From NCBI RefSeq assembly GCF_016863135.1, contig NZ_BOOH01000011.1, positions 107,141 to 158,283 of the forward strand: a DNA stretch of 51,143 nucleotides, in the 5' to 3' direction. The notes under the pieces are model-generated. The model had not been told where the DNA came from. It saw only the letters and a program-made list of their open reading frames with translations, and ran no database searches. This document shows, in pieces, positions 16,949-27,608 of this stretch; positions within the stretch are counted from its first letter, which is position 1; each line of letters opens with the position of its first letter. This DNA is from Planobispora longispora (lineage in GTDB: Bacteria > Actinomycetota > Actinomycetes > Streptosporangiales > Streptosporangiaceae). The position numbers and the translations under genes were made by a program.

Positions 16949-18208
16949 ATGTCCTCTCTCAGCCCGTCTTCCGTCTCCTCTCTCCCCGGCGGCCCCGTCC
17001 CTTCCTCTCCCGTCTCTTCCTCTCCTGGCGGCGCGAGGTCGCGTCCGCACATGCTCGGCGCCGACGAGCTCGCCCGCGCGCTGGCCGTCCGGGACCTGAG
17101 CGACCCCGCCCGAGGGGCGCACGCCGTTCAGCTGGTCGTCGACACCCTCGTCCGAGCCCTCCGTGCCTCCTGGAACAACCGGGTCCAATTGATCCGGGAT
17201 CATCCGCTGGTGTCCGTGGAGGACAACTACGAGCGGCTGGGCTATCCGCAGGACGCCGTCTCCAGAGACGCCCGCTACACCCGCTACGTCAGCCGGACAT
17301 GCATGCTGCGCAGCCATACCAGCGCCATGATCCCCCCTGCTCTGCGGGAACTGGCGGGCCAGACCGGCGACGGCGGGGATCACCGCCGGTGTGACGTGCT
17401 GCTGGCCTGTCCGGGGATGGTCTACCGGCGCGACGTCGTCGACCGGATCCACACCGGCACCCCGCACCAGCTCGACCTCTGGCGCGTCGTCACCGGCCGG
17501 CGGATGGACTCCGGCGACCTCGAGGAGATGATCGCCGCCGTCGTGGGTGCGATCCTTCCCGGGATGCCGTACCGGACGGTCCCGGCATCGCACCCCTACA
17601 CCGAGCACGGACGCCAGATCGACGTCCGGGCCGGGCAGGAGTGGATCGAGGTCGGCGAGTGCGGGCTGGCCGCCCCCGGAGTTCTGGCGACGGCGGGGCT
17701 GGGCCCCGGCGTCAGCGGTCTGGCCATGGGGCTCGGGCTGGACCGGCTGCTGATGTTGCGCAAGCGGATCCCCGACATCCGCCTGCTGCGGGCGTCCGAC
17801 CCCCGGATCGCCGGTCAGATGCTGGACCTCACGCCCTACCGGCCGGTGTCCAGGCATCCGGCGATCTCTCGTGACATGTCGGTGGCCGTCCACGCCGAGG
17901 CCGACGCCGAGACGCTGGGCGGCGCGGTGCGTGACGCCCTCGGCCCCTACGCCGACGCAGTCGAGGAGATCCGTCTCATCTCCGAGACGCCGGTCGGCGA
18001 CCTGCCGCCCTCCGCGGTCGACCGCCTCGGCGCCCTGCCCGGGCAGAAGAACGTGTTGCTGCGCGTCGTCCTGCGCGACCCGTCCCGCACTCTGGCCGAC
18101 GGCGAGGCGAACGCCATCCGCGATCGCATCTACGCGGCCGTGCACCGGGGAACCGCCCACCAGTGGGCCGGTTCCCGCCCACCGGAGACGACCCCTGACG
18201 GAACCTGA
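16949..18208 (+). CDS. PheS-like single-chain ligase with FDX-ACB domain (SrmL-like)
   Basis: The 419-residue protein looks like a monomeric phenylalanyl-tRNA synthetase of the organellar kind. After a disordered Ser/Pro-rich start there is a class II core: NNRVQLIRDHPLVSVEDNYE, motif 2-like VYRRDVVDRIHTGTPHQLDL and motif 3-like GLAMGLGLDRLLML followed by KRIPDIRLLRASD. Residues from about 295 form a ferredoxin-fold anticodon-binding domain (YRPVSRHPAISRDMSVAV onward). The usual FHQ.EG of motif 2 is changed to PHQLDL, so the amino-acid pocket may differ. I recall that NCBI names such proteins PheS-related mystery ligase SrmL; I cannot verify that here. The start is uncertain: ATG at 17051 would remove 34 low-complexity residues. 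Confidence 0.75.
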   Translation: MSSLSPSSVSSLPGGPVPSSPVSSSPGGARSRPHMLGADELARALAVRDLSDPARGAHAVQLVVDTLVRALRASWNNRVQLIRDHPLVSVEDNYERLGYPQDAVSRDARYTRYVSRTCMLRSHTSAMIPPALRELAGQTGDGGDHRRCDVLLACPGMVYRRDVVDRIHTGTPHQLDLWRVVTGRRMDSGDLEEMIAAVVGAILPGMPYRTVPASHPYTEHGRQIDVRAGQEWIEVGECGLAAPGVLATAGLGPGVSGLAMGLGLDRLLMLRKRIPDIRLLRASDPRIAGQMLDLTPYRPVSRHPAISRDMSVAVHAEADAETLGGAVRDALGPYADAVEEIRLISETPVGDLPPSAVDRLGALPGQKNVLLRVVLRDPSRTLADGEANAIRDRIYAAVHRGTAHQWAGSRPPETTPDGT

Positions 18209-18261: not shown

Positions 18262-18762
18262 ATGTTGATCAGAGCGGCGCGGGCGGACGAGGCCGAGCTC
18301 CTGAGCGAGCTGGCGATCCGGTCCAAGGCCCACTGGGGCTATGACGAGGCGTTCATGGCGGCCTGCCGGGACGAGCTGGTGATCCGGGCGTCGGAGATCG
18401 GCGGGCGGCGCGCCACGGTGGCCGAACACGACGGCCGCGTCCTGGGGTTCGCCACGCTGGAAGGAGATCCTCCGGAAGGGGACCTGGGCATGCTCTTCGT
18501 CGAGCCCGGCGCCATCGGCCGGGGCGTCGGCCGGCGCCTGTTCGAGCACGTCACCACCACCGCGGCGGCCCTCGGTTTCGCGCGCCTCACGATCGACGCG
18601 GATCCGAACGCCGAGCCGTTCTATCTGGCCATGGGAGCCGCCCGGATCGGCGTGACCCCGTCGGAGTCCGTCCCCGGGCGGATGCTGCCCCTGCTCGCGA
18701 TCACCATCGCCGGAGGCGGCGCGGGAACCGGAAGCCCCGTCGCCGACCCGGTCCGGACGTGA
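18262..18762 (+). CDS. GNAT family N-acetyltransferase
   Basis: This 166-residue protein begins MLIRAARADEAELL, as GNAT enzymes commonly do. The acetyl-CoA pyrophosphate-binding motif is GRGVGRRLFEHV, preceded by the beta-4 strand LGMLFVEPGAIG and followed by LTIDADPNAEPFYLAMGA, the usual late GNAT motif. The substrate (amine, amino acid, antibiotic or protein) cannot be deduced. It starts with ATG at 18262, with AGGGGAGA about ten bases upstream. The last 20 residues are a low-complexity Gly/Pro tail that reads into a tandem duplication at the stop codon. Confidence 0.9.
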   Translation: MLIRAARADEAELLSELAIRSKAHWGYDEAFMAACRDELVIRASEIGGRRATVAEHDGRVLGFATLEGDPPEGDLGMLFVEPGAIGRGVGRRLFEHVTTTAAALGFARLTIDADPNAEPFYLAMGAARIGVTPSESVPGRMLPLLAITIAGGGAGTGSPVADPVRT

Positions 18763-18812
18763 CCGCCGCACCGGCCGTCGGGGAACGTGACCGCTGCACC
18801 GGCCGTCGGGGA
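18757..18812. repeat. 28-bp tandem duplication spanning the GNAT stop codon
   Basis: Copy 1 at 18757-18784 contains the TGA stop (18760-18762). Copy 2 at 18785-18812 differs at one base. A partial third copy may follow. The rest of the 101-base gap to the convergent gene shows nothing else. Confidence 0.85.
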
Positions 18813-18863
18813 ACGGGACCGGCTCGGGAAAGGGATCGCGCCCCCGGCGGGACGCCGTCCCGT

Positions 18864-19496
18864 TCACTGCCAGACGAGGACGTCGACCAGGAAACCCTCG
18901 TCCACCGTCCGGACGATTCTTATGTGAGCCAGGCGCTCCACGTTCGTGCGCATGCAGAAGGCCGTTCCCGGCGGCGGGGAGGCGAAGCCGTGCCCGGACT
19001 TCCAGGGGCTTTTCCGCAGGGCCTCCTCGCACTGGGCGGACGACGGCGGGTTCTGTCCCGTCCACGGGGCGGAGGCCAGGGCCGGGGCGACGGACACCCC
19101 GGCGTCCTCGTCGTATCGCAGGTCCTCCCAGCTGGGGTCCGGGGGGACGTGGTCGAGGTCGAGCCCGCTCCTGGTCAGGGTCCGCTCTCCCCGGTAGCGC
19201 ACGCCCTCGCCGGTCTCCGGCGACGCCGACGCCGGAGCGGTGGCCGGGGAGCGCGTGGCCTCTTCATCCGGGGCCGTGGACGCCGGGGCCGTGGAGGCGG
19301 GAGCCGTGGACGCCGACGGGGTGGTCCCGGCCGAGGCGGCGGTCCCGCTGCCTCTCGTCGCGTACAGCCCGATCAGGGCCGCGACGACCGTGGCGGCGGC
19401 GCCGATCAGGGCCGCGACGACGACCGGCCAGTTCTTCCCCTCCTTCGTGCCGCCGCTCCGCGCGGGCCCGCCCTGACTTCCCTCGTCACCTGTCAC
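18864..19496 (-). CDS. single-pass membrane protein with extracellular sensor-like domain
   Basis: The 210-residue protein has a short cytosolic N-terminus, one membrane segment (WPVVVAALIGAAATVVAALI, about residues 23-42), a disordered Ala/Ser/Thr/Pro linker with repeated APAST units (about 50-95) and a C-terminal domain with two cysteines (AQCEEALRK and TAFCMRT). Similar C-terminal domains occur as extracytoplasmic parts of actinomycete Ser/Thr kinases and stand-alone proteins of unknown role; this is my recollection of the pattern. It starts with GTG at 19496, with GGAGGG about 13 bases upstream. It is convergent with the GNAT gene and transcribed alone. Confidence 0.7.
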   Translation of the reverse strand: MTGDEGSQGGPARSGGTKEGKNWPVVVAALIGAAATVVAALIGLYATRGSGTAASAGTTPSASTAPASTAPASTAPDEEATRSPATAPASASPETGEGVRYRGERTLTRSGLDLDHVPPDPSWEDLRYDEDAGVSVAPALASAPWTGQNPPSSAQCEEALRKSPWKSGHGFASPPPGTAFCMRTNVERLAHIRIVRTVDEGFLVDVLVWQ

Positions 19497-20018
19497 GCTC
19501 GGACGTCCCTCCGGTGTCTTTCCGGGCCGCGCCGATGTTCCGGGCAGGATGCCGGCGGCGATTCACTCGCGAGAGGGAAACCCCGGCAGGGGGAACGGAC
19601 GCGTAAAGGTCCCGTGGATTCAGCGTCCATCGTAAAACCGGTCGCCCGCGATTGCGAGGTCCCGTGTCTCGAACGTTGCTTTCGCCATGGGTTTCTCGCG
19701 GTGAATCGTTGATGGCGAAGTTTTTGTGGGTTAGATGCTTTTGTCCAGATGTGAGTGGGCAACCGGCGGCGTCCAGCGGGAACGCGGTCAATTCACGCGG
19801 ACCGGAATCCAATGGCGGACGGTGGCCGGACGAACGCGTCACCGAGGTGTTGACCGCCGTCGAAGGCGACGGTTACATGAGGTTGTCGAGATCGATTGAC
19901 GATGCGGTTCTGCGGTGCGAAGCGGAGCTTCCAGGGAAGCGCCGGTCTGCGGCGCCCCGAGCGGTTCGGAAGCGGTTCGGAAGCGGGATATCCGGGTTCA
20001 CTCGAGAAAGGGCTGGAC
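19497..20018. promoter_or_regulatory. 522-bp region upstream of the peptide/YcaO operon
   Basis: This stretch has clearly lower GC than its flanks at 19610-19760. TTCGCCAT (19681-19688) pairs with ATGGCGAA (19712-19719), followed at once by GTTTTTG, so it looks like a terminator or attenuator on the plus strand. An 11-bp direct repeat CGGTTCGGAAG occurs twice at about 19963-19985, just ahead of the peptide gene. No gene is supported: an ORF starting at 19712 lacks a ribosome site and runs into the peptide gene. The operon promoter probably lies between 19620 and 19900. Confidence 0.45.
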
Positions 20019-20159
20019 ATGGGTAACAGCAACTCCAACGGATGTACGCTCGCGAAGCCGGGCGGAGGCTGTCTCGAAGACGATTTCTCGCTCTCCGCCA
20101 CTGAAAGGCAGCTGATGGACGCCGTCTTCGTGATCAAGTACGCGCCCGGCGTGCTGTAG
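20019..20159 (+). CDS. candidate RiPP precursor peptide, 46 aa
   Basis: The peptide begins MGNSNSNGCTLAKPGGGC and ends with VIKYAPGVL. It has Cys at 9 and 18, a hydrophilic Asn/Ser/Gly-rich start, the spacer KPGGG, an acidic stretch LEDDFSL and a helical region ATERQLMDAVFVIKY. GAAAGGGC lies eight bases before ATG 20019. The stop is two bases before the start of a YcaO gene, and an MFS exporter follows, so a post-translationally modified product is likely. If the modifying enzyme acts on Cys, Ser or Thr, the N-terminal half holds most candidates, which would place the core ahead of a C-terminal recognition helix. That order is speculative. No known precursor family is recognised. Confidence 0.65.
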   Translation: MGNSNSNGCTLAKPGGGCLEDDFSLSATERQLMDAVFVIKYAPGVL

Positions 20160-20161
20160 CG

Positions 20162-21412
20162 GTGGGGGCGCGCGCCCGGGCGGAGCGGAGCGCCGGCGTC
20201 GGCGAGGCCCTGGAGTCGATCGAGTCGTTCCTGACCGGTCTCGGGTTCTCCGCCGAGCTCGTCTCCGCGGGGTCTCCCGAGTTCCCGGTTCACCGTTGCG
20301 TGCTGCGAGATCCGCAGGGCCGGCCGGTCGCCGAGTCGCTCGGCAAGGGCGCCGGCGAGCAGAGCCGGGCGAGCGCTCTGTTCGAGGCGTGGCAGCACCT
20401 CCAGCACCAGCGGGGACAGGCCGCACTCGCTGCGGACCCGCGGCGGGTGCGGGTCCTGGCGGCTTCAACCGTGGTGGCCCAGCCGCAACTGCGCGGGGAG
20501 GGGATGCTGCACCGCCTCGCGGCGGACTATCCGGACGCCCGGCTGGCCTGCCTGCGCCTCGAACCGATGGCGCAGGGCGCCTCGGAGCTCTGGTATCCGG
20601 CCTTCGCCCGGTCACCGGTCTGCCGGGACCATCCGATCCCCGGTGACGACCTGGAGTACGAACCCTATCTGCGATACGCCTACGACAGCGGTACGGCGAC
20701 CGGGATGAGCGAACCGGAGGCGCTCCTGCACGGGCTGCTGGAGGCGGTGGAGCGGGACGCGCTCTCGCACGCCCTGCTGAACTGGTACGTCAATGACACG
20801 TACCGGCCGTCGGGAGTCGATCCCGCGGACCTTCCGGCGGACATATCCCGGCTCTACGAATACGCGACGGACCGCTTCGGCGGCCCGCCGCTGCTCATCG
20901 ACATGACATCGGATCTGGAAATCCCCGCCTACTGCGCGCTGCCGCCCCGCGCGCGCCATCCCGGCGTGCTGGGCTCCGGCGCCTCCCTGGACGCCGAATA
21001 CGCGCTGGAACGCGCGCTCACCGAAGTGGTCCAGTCGGAATTCAACATGTCACTCGGGGTGGATCGCACTCTCGGCAACCGTCTCGCCTACCTGCGGCGG
21101 TGGCCGTTGCTGGAACGGTGCGCCAGGGCCGACCCGGCCGGGCTGGCGGACCGCCTCTCCCGTGGGGGGCGACTGCCCGGACGGGCGGAGCGGACGGGGG
21201 AACCGGGCGTGCGGCGGCGGCTCGCCGCGGTCCTGGAGAGGCTGGAGCGGGCCGGTTTCACGGCGTACTCCTTCCGGTGGAATCCCAGCGGCCCCGGTTT
21301 CCCGGTGGTGACGGTGGTGGTCCCGGGCCTGGACACGTTCGCGATGGTGCACAACGCCGTACCGGTGCTGCCGACCGGGAGGGCCGCCCGGCTGCTCGCC
21401 GGAGCCCGGTGA
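20162..21412 (+). CDS. YcaO-domain ATP-dependent peptide-modifying enzyme
   Basis: This 416-residue stand-alone YcaO protein has the ATP-binding landmarks ESLGKGAGEQSRASALFEA (about 58-76), LLHGLLEAVERDALSH (about 188-203) and GSGASLDAEYALERALTEVVQSEF (about 271-294), with Glu at about 75, 194, 197 and 288. YcaO enzymes use ATP to activate peptide amides, forming azolines, thioamides or amidines. There is no fused or adjacent E1-like/Ocin-ThiF protein, TfuA or dehydrogenase, and the C-terminal PxPxP of azoline cyclodehydratases is absent. It starts with GTG at 20162, two bases after the precursor stop, with no ribosome site, so translation is probably coupled. Confidence 0.88.
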   Translation: MGARARAERSAGVGEALESIESFLTGLGFSAELVSAGSPEFPVHRCVLRDPQGRPVAESLGKGAGEQSRASALFEAWQHLQHQRGQAALAADPRRVRVLAASTVVAQPQLRGEGMLHRLAADYPDARLACLRLEPMAQGASELWYPAFARSPVCRDHPIPGDDLEYEPYLRYAYDSGTATGMSEPEALLHGLLEAVERDALSHALLNWYVNDTYRPSGVDPADLPADISRLYEYATDRFGGPPLLIDMTSDLEIPAYCALPPRARHPGVLGSGASLDAEYALERALTEVVQSEFNMSLGVDRTLGNRLAYLRRWPLLERCARADPAGLADRLSRGGRLPGRAERTGEPGVRRRLAAVLERLERAGFTAYSFRWNPSGPGFPVVTVVVPGLDTFAMVHNAVPVLPTGRAARLLAGAR

Positions 21413-21415
21413 AGA

Positions 21416-21439
21416 GGTGATGCGGTGATGCGGTGATGC
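21416..21439. repeat. 8-bp unit GGTGATGC, three tandem copies
   Basis: The copies at 21416-21423, 21424-21431 and 21432-21439 lie between the YcaO stop and the MFS coding region. They contain three overlapping possible starts and stops. The third copy supplies the ATG at 21436 chosen for the transporter. Copy-number change would alter spacing of the ribosome site (GAAGAGG at 21411). Confidence 0.8.
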
Positions 21440-22719
21440 TGACGGTCCTGCGCCGGCGGGACTTCCGCCTGGTGTACGCCGCGATGGCGACGAGCCTGCT
21501 GGGCGACGCGTCCCTGCTGCTGATCCCCGCCATCCTGGCCAAGAAGCTCACCGGGTCCGACGGGGCGGCGGGGCTGACCCTTCTCTTCTTCACTCTGCCG
21601 CTGTGCGTCTCCCCGCTGTTCGGCTGGGTGATCGACCGCTTCGACCGCCGGAGGTTCCTCGTCGGGGCGTGCCTGGCGTCGGCGGCGGGGATCATGCCGC
21701 TGGCCGCGGTGTCCGGTCCCGACACGGTCTGGCTGGCCTATCTGGCCTCGGCGGCGATGGGATGCTCCTACACCGCCGTCTTCGGAGCGCTCAACGGCCT
21801 GCTGAAGAGCATGTTGCCGGAGCGGTTGCTCGTCGACGCCAACAGCGTCCTGCAGGTCACCCGTCAGGGGCTCCGCCTGGTCGGCCCCCTGCTCGGGGTC
21901 GCCGTCTACACCGGGTTCGGCCTGTGGGCGGCGGTTCTGCTGGACGCGGCCACCTTCGTGGCCGCGGCCCTGGCCTTCGCCGCGCTTCCTCCCGGGCCGC
22001 CCGCCGCGCTTCCTCCCGGGCCGCCCGCCGCGCCTCCCCGGCACGGGCCCGCTGCGCCTCCCCGGGACGGGCCTGCCGGGCCCCCGCGGCCGGAGCCCGC
22101 CGGGCGGCCGGAGCGGTCCCGCCTGCGGGCCGAGCTCCTGGCCGGAGCCCGGCACATCGCCGGTGAGCCGGGAATCAGGCGGGCGGTCGGCTCCTTCTGC
22201 CTGATGTCCGCGGCGGCGGGGGCGACCGAGTCGCTCATCTTCGCCGTCATCCAGGCCGCCGGCCGTCCTCCCGAGTTCACCGCCTTCACCTCGACCGCGA
22301 TGGGGATCGGCGCGGTCGCCGGCGGGACGCTCGCGGCCCCGGCCGTCCGGCGCTGGGGCGAGCTGCCGGTGATCGGCGCGGGGATCGGGCTGCACGGCCT
22401 GGCGGTCGCCCTGTGGCTGCTCTCCGCCGACGTGACGCTGGCGGCGGCGATGCTCGTCTCGGGCGGCGGCCTGACGGCGGCGGGGATCGCGGTGCGGACC
22501 CTGAAGCAGCGCCGCAGCCCCGGCCACGTCCTCGGCCGGGTGTCCACCGCCTTCGACGCGCTGACCGGCGCCCTCCAGCTCGCCTCGATCGCGGCCGGCG
22601 CGGTTCTGGTGACGGTCGTCGACCACCGGATCCTGCTCGTGGCCGTGGCCGCGGTCATCTGCTGGGCCGGGGCGCGCTGCTTCGGCGTCGCCCAGGCGGT
22701 CAGTCCCAGGGCGGGGTGA
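21436..22719 (+). CDS. MFS transporter, likely peptide product exporter
   Basis: This 427-residue major facilitator protein has about eleven to twelve membrane segments and the MFS loop motif GWVIDRFDRRRFL between segments 2 and 3. The central cytosolic loop (about residues 180-220) is an unusual Pro/Gly/Ala-rich run with imperfect repeats of PPGPPAA. The GTG at 21433 precedes the ATG at 21436 in frame. Position after the peptide and YcaO genes suggests export of, or immunity to, the modified peptide. The gene overlaps the 3' end of the convergent asparagine-synthase-like gene by 20 bases. Confidence 0.88.
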   Translation: MLTVLRRRDFRLVYAAMATSLLGDASLLLIPAILAKKLTGSDGAAGLTLLFFTLPLCVSPLFGWVIDRFDRRRFLVGACLASAAGIMPLAAVSGPDTVWLAYLASAAMGCSYTAVFGALNGLLKSMLPERLLVDANSVLQVTRQGLRLVGPLLGVAVYTGFGLWAAVLLDAATFVAAALAFAALPPGPPAALPPGPPAAPPRHGPAAPPRDGPAGPPRPEPAGRPERSRLRAELLAGARHIAGEPGIRRAVGSFCLMSAAAGATESLIFAVIQAAGRPPEFTAFTSTAMGIGAVAGGTLAAPAVRRWGELPVIGAGIGLHGLAVALWLLSADVTLAAAMLVSGGGLTAAGIAVRTLKQRRSPGHVLGRVSTAFDALTGALQLASIAAGAVLVTVVDHRILLVAVAAVICWAGARCFGVAQAVSPRAG

Positions 22720-24415
22720 GGTCCGGCAGGCGGTCGGCGTAGTCGCCCAGCCAGGCGCCGAACAGAACCAGGCTCCGCACCCAGAACCGGTCGTTCCAGC
22801 CGTTGAAGCGGGCCAGCGCGTCCGGTCCCTCGGCGACCACCGCGTGCAGCTGCTCCGACAGCAGCGACGGCACCGTCTCCGCGACCCGGGTCAGCATCGC
22901 GTGCCCGTAGGCGCGGGCGGGCGCGGCGGCCGAGCGGAGCGGGACCCGCTGGAGCGGCTGCTTGACCACGTTGGTCGAGGGGAGCGCCGCCACGCGCGGG
23001 TTGGCCGTGTGCAGGACCTCGCGGTAGAACTTCCCGCCGTCCTTGCGGGCCACCCCCACCGAGAGCGCGGCGTCGAAGAAGTCGGGGTGCATGAACGGGG
23101 CCGCGAACGACACCTCGGGACCGACCAGGTTGACCGCGGATCGGGCGATGCCCCGGGCGGTGCGGGTGTGCAGGACCGACAGCGGCAGCTCGGCCCGGTG
23201 ACCGTTGAGCATGGAGGTCGCCTGGGCGAAGGCCGCACGCACCGACGAAGTGATCCACTCTTCCGCCCGCTCCGACAGGAACGGGGCCGACGGGGCGCCC
23301 AGGGCGAGCGAGCCGAGCAGCGCGGCCTTCCGCTCGGCCTGCGTGGAGGCGGTCAGGGCGGCCCCGCTGACCATGAAGTTCTTCAGCAGCGGCCCGCCGG
23401 CCAGGCCGTCCACCAGGGTCCGCCCGGCCTGGTGCACCTCGCGGGCGAACGGGGCGTACCAGGCGTGGTGCGGGGTCAGGAACTCCAGGCGGCGGGCGAC
23501 GGCCAGGGCGTCGGCGGGATAGGCGGCCGGGTCCTGGCCGATCACACGGTGCCGCACCCCGAGCTCGCGGGTGATCGCCTCGGCGAAGGCGATGTCGGTG
23601 TCGGTGCCGTCGTCCGGGCTGGTCGTCCACGACTCGACGTCCGCGCCCCGGGCCACGGCCACCGAGCACAGCAGCCGCGAGTCGTAGCCGCCGCTGACCG
23701 GCACCAGCAGCGGGCGCCCGTCGAGCTCCTTGTAGGCCTCGTGCAGGATCTCCAGGATCTCCCCGGCGCTCCGCCCGGCCTCGATCGGCTCCTCACGCAG
23801 CCAGCGCGGGAGCCGCCGGTCGGTCGAGAGCCGCTCCGCCCGCTTGTCCCAGACCAGCGCGCTCGCCCCGGCCAGCCGTCTGACCTGCGTGTACGGCGTG
23901 TCGTCACGGAGCGGGAAAGTGAGCTGGACGATCGAGGCCCAGGCGTCCCAGTTGATCTCGTACGGCTCGCGCGCGAGGGAGAGCAGCGGCTCCAGCAGCG
24001 AGGAGAAATAGACCGCGTCGTCCCGGACCAGGTAGTAGACGTCCACCAGGCCGAGCCCCCCGGTGTGGAGCGTGATCCGGTCGCCGTCGTCGATCAGGCC
24101 CGGCGTCTCGTAGGTCTCCGCCACCGTGATCCACGGCGTCCGGGCGTCCATCCCGGCCGGCCGGCGCTCCCCCCAGGAGAACGCCCACATCCCGGTGTCC
24201 CGGGCGGCGTTCCCGACGAGGTCCGCGCCGGGACCCCGGCCCGGGCCCTTGGCGTACGGCGGCAGCGGCGACGAGCTGAACAGCGCCGCGCCCGGAGCCC
24301 GCAGCGCGGGCCGCACCCGGGGACCGGCCTCGCACAGCACCGCCAGGACGGCCTCGTCGAGCCGGCCGATGCCGCCGCAGACGTACGGCCTCACATTGAA
24401 CGTCGGCCACTGCAC
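22700..24415 (-). CDS. asparagine-synthase-like protein without glutaminase cysteine
   Basis: The 571-residue protein carries the PP-loop ATP pyrophosphatase motif VPVSGGYDSRLLCSVA, so it should activate a carboxylate with ATP. The N-terminal part (MQWPTFNVRPY) does not have the Cys2 nucleophile of class II amidotransferases, but TLHTGGLGLVDVYYLV looks like a degenerate Ntn-fold remnant. Such proteins occur in surface-polysaccharide and natural-product clusters, where they may amidate or ligate non-asparagine substrates. It starts with GTG at 24415 with GGAGGAG upstream. It is divergent from the coiled-coil glycosyltransferase-like gene at 24488, which suggests a shared pathway. The substrate is unknown. 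Confidence 0.8.
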   Translation of the reverse strand: MQWPTFNVRPYVCGGIGRLDEAVLAVLCEAGPRVRPALRAPGAALFSSSPLPPYAKGPGRGPGADLVGNAARDTGMWAFSWGERRPAGMDARTPWITVAETYETPGLIDDGDRITLHTGGLGLVDVYYLVRDDAVYFSSLLEPLLSLAREPYEINWDAWASIVQLTFPLRDDTPYTQVRRLAGASALVWDKRAERLSTDRRLPRWLREEPIEAGRSAGEILEILHEAYKELDGRPLLVPVSGGYDSRLLCSVAVARGADVESWTTSPDDGTDTDIAFAEAITRELGVRHRVIGQDPAAYPADALAVARRLEFLTPHHAWYAPFAREVHQAGRTLVDGLAGGPLLKNFMVSGAALTASTQAERKAALLGSLALGAPSAPFLSERAEEWITSSVRAAFAQATSMLNGHRAELPLSVLHTRTARGIARSAVNLVGPEVSFAAPFMHPDFFDAALSVGVARKDGGKFYREVLHTANPRVAALPSTNVVKQPLQRVPLRSAAAPARAYGHAMLTRVAETVPSLLSEQLHAVVAEGPDALARFNGWNDRFWVRSLVLFGAWLGDYADRLPDLTPPWD

Positions 24416-27175: not shown

Positions 27176-27200
27176 GCGGGCTCACGTCACCCGGATCGGC

Positions 27201-27608
27201 CTAGCAGAAGGGGGACCAGATGCAGTAGAGACCCTTCTTGTACTTCTTGAGCAGCTTGTAGATCACCCAGGGGAGGCTCTCGAAGGTCCTGGAGAAATCG
27301 TTCCAGCCCTTGCGGGCGGCGTCCTCCAGCTTCTGGAGAGCCCACATGCCGCCGGCGCGCTTCACGGCCTCGCAGGCCATCCGCATCTTCCAGTTCTTCA
27401 CCTTCTTGCACGGGTTCCGGCCGGCGGTCTCCGCCAGTGTCGCCGGGCCCGTCATGTTCACGGCGGCGACGGCGGCGGTGAACGCCGCCTCCGCCGTCGC
27501 GACGCGTACGGACGGTCCCGCCGTGGCCGCGTGCGCCGCGACCGGCGCCCCGGCGCTCATGACGGCGGCGGTCAGCACGGCCGCGGCCAGCTTCTTGGTG
27601 GGTCCCAT
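27201..27608 (-). CDS. secreted cationic protein with four cysteines
   Basis: The 135-residue protein has a clear signal peptide (MGPTKKLAAAVLTAAV, cleavage likely after AHA at about 27). A neutral Ala-rich propeptide-like segment follows to about residue 60. The C-terminal 70 residues are strongly basic and amphipathic, with KKVKNWKMR, VIYKLLKKYKKG and several Trp. Cysteines at about 67, 79, 129 and 135 allow two disulfides; the last two close a small loop at the very C-terminus (CIWSPFC). AAGGAG precedes the ATG. This composition resembles antimicrobial or membrane-active peptides, but no family is recognised. The SARP-like repeats upstream suggest control by the adjacent regulator. Confidence 0.72.
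   Translation of the reverse strand: MGPTKKLAAAVLTAAVMSAGAPVAAHAATAGPSVRVATAEAAFTAAVAAVNMTGPATLAETAGRNPCKKVKNWKMRMACEAVKRAGGMWALQKLEDAARKGWNDFSRTFESLPWVIYKLLKKYKKGLYCIWSPFC

Follow-up and report, generated by a model that had tools for sequence, protein, structure and literature searches.

Bottromycin is an example of a ribosomally synthesized and post-translationally modified peptide (RiPP) that is cut from the N-terminus of its precursor, the precursor having a follower in place of a leader, and its N-terminal core and follower occur with two stand-alone YcaO enzymes (PMC7136475; here and below, papers given by PMC number are cited for excerpts of their text). Actinobacterial stand-alone YcaO enzymes have been surveyed with RiPPER, with Network 1, marked by an ALV motif, as the group studied, and most of them lack an assigned function (PMC8442711). 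Here we describe a compact cassette in Planobispora longispora, located in a stretch of 51,143 nucleotides (contig NZ_BOOH01000011.1, positions 107,141 to 158,283 of the forward strand) that we call the window and whose own numbering is used throughout. The cassette comprises genes for a 46-amino acid (aa) peptide, a stand-alone YcaO and a predicted exporter of the major facilitator superfamily (MFS). The small open reading frame (ORF) is confirmed as a real gene, more than a chance frame, and sequence comparison makes it reasonably probable that its product is the substrate of the YcaO, with an N-terminal core and a C-terminal follower, in a minimal RiPP cassette of the bottromycin kind. The parts are these:

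20019..20159, + strand: gene for the 46-aa precursor peptide, ATG at 20019, stop TAG at 20157-20159, product MGNSNSNGCTLAKPGGGCLEDDFSLSATERQLMDAVFVIKYAPGVL
20022..20042, + strand: proposed N-terminal core, codons 2-8, GNSNSNG (putative role)
20085..20132, + strand: proposed C-terminal follower, codons 23-38, FSLSATERQLMDAVFV, with the tail motif as LSATERQLM (putative role)
20162..21412, + strand: stand-alone YcaO, 416 aa (Pfam YcaO)
21433..22719, + strand: predicted MFS exporter, 428 aa (Pfam MFS_1), its frame opening 20 bases beyond the YcaO gene

The arrangement described in the original prediction holds on the sequence: an AAAGGG ends 6 bases upstream of the peptide ATG, two bases (cg) separate the peptide stop from the GTG of the YcaO gene, where no Shine-Dalgarno sequence is visible, and the MFS gene follows directly. 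The YcaO falls in superfamily PF02624 (133.3 bits against a curated cut-off of 25.7, E = 1.6e-38), and its GKG, E..ERD and RALTE..Q segments align with TruD, LynD and MJ1094 in a profile of 14 relatives that includes the window protein; no NCBIfam model scored above its cut-off. The product of the third gene matches MFS_1 with 77 bits (E = 1.9e-21). The peptide, which had been said to resemble no known precursor class, has no Pfam match at E up to 0.1 and no NCBIfam match. Also as claimed, a scan of the seven proteins encoded between 16949 and 24415 shows no E1-like protein, TfuA or dehydrogenase; the search for E1-like and Ocin-ThiF partners was confined to this stretch. TfuA (PF07812) has no match anywhere in the window genome, nor in five of eight other genomes tested.

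A C-terminal PxPxP is a feature of the cyclodehydratases of linear azol(in)e-containing peptides (LAPs) and thiazole/oxazole-modified microcins (TOMMs). The window YcaO ends in LPTGRAARLLAGAR and lacks it, again as had been noted, and no partner protein lies in the surroundings of the cassette that were searched. With these two defining features missing, membership of the LAPs was rejected.

The case for the small ORF as a gene comes from its relatives. A scan of genome contigs located five Streptosporangium loci with a YcaO that is 59-67% identical to the window's in the best segment, and each of the five carries at the equivalent position a small ORF that begins MGNSNSNG; S. pseudovulgare (G008), for one, shares the family of the window genome and belongs to a different genus. 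Two further genomes (G321 and G204) bring the others to seven. We refer to these peptides, which start MGNSNS[N/D]G, as type A; there are eight copies including the window's, each preceding an orthologous YcaO gene, and M1, G2, N3, S4, N5, S6, G8, L11, L19, E20, F23, E29, L32, F37 and P43 are invariant among them. A profile of the eight matches 9 of 341 genomes of the family, once each and always with E below 1e-24, and eight of the matches precede a YcaO gene. The ninth (G326, L118:8001-8220) is a natural wreck of the cassette, in which the peptide is intact, the YcaO is deleted to about 18 codons and the start of the MFS gene is lost. In the YcaO tree the window clade has nine rows with support of 100/100, and each of the nine has a small ORF just upstream, of the MGNSNS type in eight. 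YcaO homologs that never have such an ORF, named beforehand as evidence that would tell against the peptide, were thus not what this clade contains.

Codon-level comparison of all pairs of type-A copies shows protein-level selection at codons 1-8, with a proportion of non-synonymous differences (pN) of 0.026 against a proportion of synonymous differences (pS) of 0.192. Codons 9-20 gave a pN of 0.270 and a pS of 0.452, and pN/pS pooled over all 46 codons is 0.65. The original prediction had singled out Cys9 and Cys18 around a KPGGG spacer, and this part does not stand: both cysteines occur in the window copy only, position 9 is Gln, Arg or Gly in the other seven copies, the spacer there is KPDG, RPDG, GEDG or KPGS, and the only other Cys among the eight peptides is residue 10 of the S. 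pseudovulgare copy. Cysteines and spacer were therefore rejected as modification sites. A variable core among conserved peptides had been expected as well, and in the window clade it is the N-terminus that proved most conserved.

Beyond this clade, a profile of its YcaOs matches at 60 places in 59 of the 341 family genomes (E up to 1e-30). We examined 60 loci, namely 59 of these places, with G210 left out, plus G024. A motif ORF was defined as one of 28-65 codons with an M-G or M-A start, a tail matching [LVIFA][ST]xxExxx[LMIV] and an end between -400 and +120 of the estimated YcaO start; the tail motif was formulated with the peptides already in view and with a bottromycin precursor already known. 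Such an ORF is present at 46 of the 60 YcaO loci (M-G in 45, M-A in 1) as against 16 of 2846 equal-sized control windows elsewhere in the loci, and the peptide of G210, outside the set, also fits the tail motif. Gly2 occurs in 45 of the 46 motif peptides, as compared with 11 of 170 ordinary genes called from an ATG in the same loci. The remaining 14 loci include ten with a MAC[A/V] peptide, one with an MGCAY peptide with an acidic tail and one with a drifted MGCESY copy, the controls having covered motif peptides only. Peptide labels track the YcaO tree, three labels requiring 7 changes against a mean of 14.1 in shuffles.

Type B (27 peptides, MGNVVDY...ESLDRxxQxLTxAExxxLEEL), has a pN/pS of 0.44. 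Positions G2, D6, S12, L13, D14, Q18, L20, T21 and E24 never vary in it, and residues 3-5, 8-10, 15-17 and 19 vary most. A third type, with sequences such as MACAGYEW..., MACASLMM... and MACV... and an acidic tail, precedes YcaOs of a separate clade (L077, L080, L082, L119, L121, L122, L124, L126, L127 and L128). In the papers searched we found no description of type-A, type-B or MAC peptides, which the supplementary peptide networks of PMC8442711 may list.

Further afield, a linear plasmid of Streptomyces sp. NBC_01707 (L134:5722-8911, NZ_CP109191.1) carries in a row genes for a MGTGDLKLLCTAATG... peptide, a YcaO and a SagB-type dehydrogenase. On this plasmid and in G1126, the peptide before the YcaO starts M-G and contains LSES or LSEAE; that of G1126 fits in its M-G and LSEAE and departs from the strict motif at the last position. 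Searches of a class sample (394 genomes) and a phylum sample (396 genomes), and the one with the plasmid YcaO as query, scored about four first-look candidates per genome and are weak as negatives. In the class sample the window-clade profile matched seven genomes at 1e-25, all within the family; the plasmid YcaO matched ten genomes at 1e-15, one of them outside it; and the phylum sample yielded the window genome and one other, with an 865-aa frame. Within the genus of G413, 1 of 75 genomes had a match, and two plasmid records did.

Compared with BtmD, BtmE and BtmF of bottromycin, the window cassette has in common an MG start, a proposed N-terminal core and a proposed C-terminal follower with LSxxExxxL (PMC7136475, PMC5103208, PMC12503217), and a YcaO without an E1 or TfuA partner (PMC7136475, PMC5103208). 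The precursor printed in PMC12503217 itself has M-G and LSALELEEL. Unlike bottromycin, the window unit has one YcaO rather than two, and its core would be GNSNSNG as against GPVVVFDC. The pattern of conservation among the relatives is in keeping with a core that begins at the Gly after Met and with a C-terminal follower. A profile of 37 peptides, with no type-A, Streptomyces or bottromycin members, scored that bottromycin precursor at 6.5 bits, a value reached by none of 1000 shuffles, and the Streptomyces plasmid and G1126 peptides at 3.9 and 3.8 bits, reached by 19 and 32 of 1000. There is thus some support, from sequence similarity, for kinship of type-B-like peptides with the bottromycin precursor. 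In the case of the window peptide, its own score contributes less to the argument for such kinship than do the homology of the YcaO, the position of the ORF, Gly2 and the pattern of the tail.

On the reading that we consider reasonably probable, the 46-aa peptide would be made leaderless, and host methionine aminopeptidase would remove Met1, because Gly follows. The C-terminal part, roughly residues 20-40, would serve as the recognition sequence on which the YcaO docks; the start of the YcaO gene appears coupled to the peptide stop, and the cassette encodes no E1, Ocin-ThiF or TfuA partner. Using ATP, in keeping with the conserved segments of its ATP site, the YcaO would activate a backbone amide in the GNSNSNG core near Gly1; more tentatively, the freed Gly1 amine may attack it to give a cyclic amidine. 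A host protease would then remove the follower, the cassette having no protease of its own, and the MFS protein may export the product or confer self-protection.

Of the chemistries considered, the cyclic amidine formed by the Gly1 amine is ranked first, and it is put forward tentatively. The conserved Gly2 of the encoded peptides points to the N-terminal amine as nucleophile. In bottromycin, it was deemed plausible that Gly1 attacks the amide that follows Val4, and cyclisation requires prior removal of Met1, host aminopeptidases being poor on MGP (PMC5103208). The present peptides start MGN, MGH, MGK and the like, not MGP, and a dedicated peptidase may therefore be unnecessary. An N-terminal amidine of the kind proposed for the window YcaO can be formed by the YcaO of klebsazolicin (PMC7136475). 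The leader and the partner protein used by klebsazolicin and other LAPs are both missing from the window cassette, as is the dehydrogenase that they often have.

A number of observations weigh against this reading. The type-A N-terminus is invariant and its tail variable, the opposite of type B, so that a role of the N-terminus as leader has to be weighed; the constraint on type-A codons 21-46 is weak (pN 0.273, pS 0.333, pN/pS 0.82). The codons for Ser4 and Ser6 are identical in all eight copies, which could hint at a nucleic-acid constraint. The type-B tail also varies freely at 15-17, 19, 22, 25-27 and 29. Two of the 60 loci (L120 and L123) show no candidate peptide, and three more distant ones (L139, L142 and L144) have no motif peptide, although L144 has an M-G ORF. 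The 37-peptide profile gave the window peptide a borderline 0.8 bits, reached by 55 of 1000 shuffles, and hhalign aligned type A with type B (FSLSATERQLMDAVFV on QHLTEAELDRLEELTA) at a probability of 6% and E of 0.0063. None of 21 peptides matched the bottromycin family model NF033414 at E up to 10 with the HMMER filters on, and one of the 21 matched NF033415, of the thioviridamide family, weakly (E 0.047); membership of the bottromycin family by profile was accordingly rejected. Bottromycin macrocyclisation is attributed to a YcaO together with the partner protein BtmI (PMC5103208), and the 4-kb unit of the window, described below, has no methyltransferase, P450, M17 peptidase, amidohydrolase or BtmI-type partner, so that the bottromycin gene set (two YcaOs, methyltransferases, P450, peptidases) is not what it encodes. 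Finally, in an AlphaFold2 model of the G204 peptide and YcaO as one tethered chain, with the TAG between them read through, no confident contact between peptide and YcaO is seen. The chain has a mean predicted local distance difference test score (pLDDT) of 86 and a predicted template modelling score of 0.85, with 297 of 459 residues at pLDDT 90 or more and the YcaO of high confidence; the peptide blocks lie at pLDDT 26-53, with one low-confidence helix at residues 27-36.

Two other chemistries would keep the order of core and follower, and we rank each a little behind the amidine. In the first, the YcaO alone would thioamidate the backbone of the N-terminal core with a host sulfur source. Precedents are the YcaO of E. 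coli, which thioamidates uL16, in vitro at high sulfide, in an organism with no TfuA homolog (PMC13063428), and a YcaO-TfuA pair that thioamidates Asn in an SNK core (PMC13174530), GNSNSNG likewise being rich in Asn and Ser; but the absence of TfuA from the window genome and from most of the others tested tells against it, and it leaves the conserved Gly2 unexplained. In the second, a partner-less cyclodehydratase would form an oxazoline at Ser4, Ser6 or both, much as a bottromycin YcaO forms a thiazoline. The invariance of both serines in all eight type-A peptides would suit this, as would the distant Streptomyces plasmid relative, with its CTAAT peptide and SagB-type dehydrogenase gene. Against it, the window cassette has no dehydrogenase and 21 of the 46 motif peptides have no Cys, Ser or Thr at residues 2-9; if cores are short, azolines are therefore not the reaction common to the group.

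A conventional leader-core order, in which the invariant MGNSNSNG would be the recognition element and the C-terminal half (...RxAPGxL) the modified core, seems less likely again. It would account for the type-A pattern of strongest conservation at the N-terminus and variation in the C-terminal half. It is at odds with type B, where 7 of the 9 fixed positions fall between residues 12 and 24 and the variable positions include residues 3-5 and 8-10, with the retention of F23, E29, L32, F37 and P43 in the type-A tail, and with the presence of Gly2 across types whose N-termini otherwise differ. More improbable still is that the peptide is a small partner, scaffold or regulator of a YcaO acting on some other target: an N-terminus that is invariant rather than hypervariable, the tight coupling of peptide and YcaO and the lack of a protease in the cassette would all fit, but the N-termini of type B differ from species to species, in the manner of cores, exporter homologs lie beside six of nine clade loci, and related peptides resemble the bottromycin precursor. 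That the ORF arose by chance in high-GC DNA, which is rich in open frames, is refuted by the conservation of its start and sequence in nine genomes, by the near absence of amino acid change in codons 1-8 and by the excess of motif ORFs over control windows.

Other described systems fit less well than bottromycin. Streptamidine, an amidine, likewise comes from a stand-alone actinobacterial YcaO beside a short precursor (AmiD and AmiA; PMC8442711). The core of AmiA is internal and the window peptide has no ALV motif (PMC8442711), and the 4-kb unit has no dehydrogenase, hydrolase, FecBCDE or ABC transporter genes; lacking both the motif and the ami-type neighbors, the window was not assigned to this family. 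Thioamitide and YcaO-TfuA pathways resemble the cassette in pairing a YcaO without an E1 partner with a short peptide, and an MFS gene is also present in the std pathway (PMC13174530). Unlike them, the window genome has no TfuA, and membership was rejected on the lack of a PF07812 match. A eukaryote-like N-myristoylation consensus (MGxxxS) was dropped as the meaning of MGNSNS because type B does not have it.

The cassette lies in DNA that close relatives lack, together with one further ORF:

18714..22697, no strand: extra stretch of about 4 kb relative to three congeners (blastn of L152, L153 and L154 against the window)
18864..19496, - strand: 210-aa ORF with one hydrophobic segment, inside the extra stretch

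By blastn, the window DNA on the left, which aligns as far as 18713, and that on the right, which aligns from 22697, are adjacent in G001, with 6 bp between them. In G003, window position 18191 is joined to 22695 across some 34 bp, and in G002 the corresponding gap is occupied by about 1 kb of other DNA. The extra stretch holds only the peptide, YcaO and MFS genes and the opposite-strand ORF, which is probably a passenger. This ORF matched neither Pfam nor NCBIfam, and a tblastn search of nine cassette loci and three congener loci gave nothing at E up to 1e-3. Either the window genome gained the 4 kb or the three congeners lost it. Since these congeners lack it, the cassette looks transferable, apparently by horizontal means. 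Its setting differs in the five named Streptosporangium loci, where it follows a solute-symporter gene (named by eye).

The flanking genes were considered as parts of the pathway, namely an SrmL-type ligase and a GNAT gene upstream and an asparagine-synthetase-like gene downstream, and rejected because they lie outside the 4 kb and are neighbors in congeners without the cassette: the asparagine-synthetase-like gene is present in all three searched (G001-G003, 89-92% identity) and adjoins the ligase gene, the GNAT gene or both there. The ligase, at 16949-18208, is related to PheS and matches NF051887 (SrmL) with 521 bits, a model that calls it a mystery ligase; the protein at 22700-24415 (- strand) is asparagine-synthetase- or lasso-cyclase-like, with matches below cut-off only. 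At about 27200-27600 (- strand), the end of an ORF reads as a secreted Lys-rich peptide with a C-terminal Cys (...KKYKKGLYCIWSPFC).

The MFS gene is linked to the peptide/YcaO pair, yet not obligatory. Homologs of it, 53-74% identical, lie next to the peptide and YcaO genes in canum, minutum, pseudovulgare, G321 and G204, the last with two, one on either side, so that six of the nine clade loci have one, the window included; one also stands beside the G326 remnant. The saharense and carneum loci have none, and in G201, the ninth, there is only a different transporter-like ORF downstream of the pair. The three-gene pathway first proposed accordingly survives as a peptide/YcaO pair with an exporter and with conservation in the N-terminal half of the peptide, and not as an obligatory trio.

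Upstream of the peptide in the Streptosporangium loci (L029, L030, L031, L033 and L038) we noted a conserved TTGAC element with an ATTACA...TGTAAT-like inverted repeat after it, a possible operator, which was not seen in the window. Among 45 loci clustered, 23 (L064-L102, for example L102; nearly all type B) have a related gene, in many cases of some 730 aa, downstream of the YcaO; the one that was scanned encodes a membrane NACHT NTPase, and ten loci also have a gene that by eye resembles a trypsin-like protease. The link of a YcaO peptide to genes of the STAND (signal transduction ATPases with numerous domains) type was unexpected. A broader scheme that we regard as doubtful would recognize a wide superfamily of leaderless M-G precursors, apparently not described before and of one ancestry with bottromycin, in which a single partner-less YcaO ties the freed N-terminal Gly amine onto the backbone whatever the core. 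The window clade would represent the most reduced form, mobile and of three genes, in which the GNSNS core is invariant, and a sister clade would have been drawn into NACHT NTPase loci.

For the family, the combination of an M-G start, an [LVIFA][ST]xxE tail and a stop near the YcaO start provides a rule that gives a likely substrate for 46 of 60 YcaOs. Peptide and YcaO together form a two-gene system small enough for co-expression, and if an N-terminal amidine is indeed the product, the YcaO would be a simple enzyme for closing rings in peptides of many sequences.

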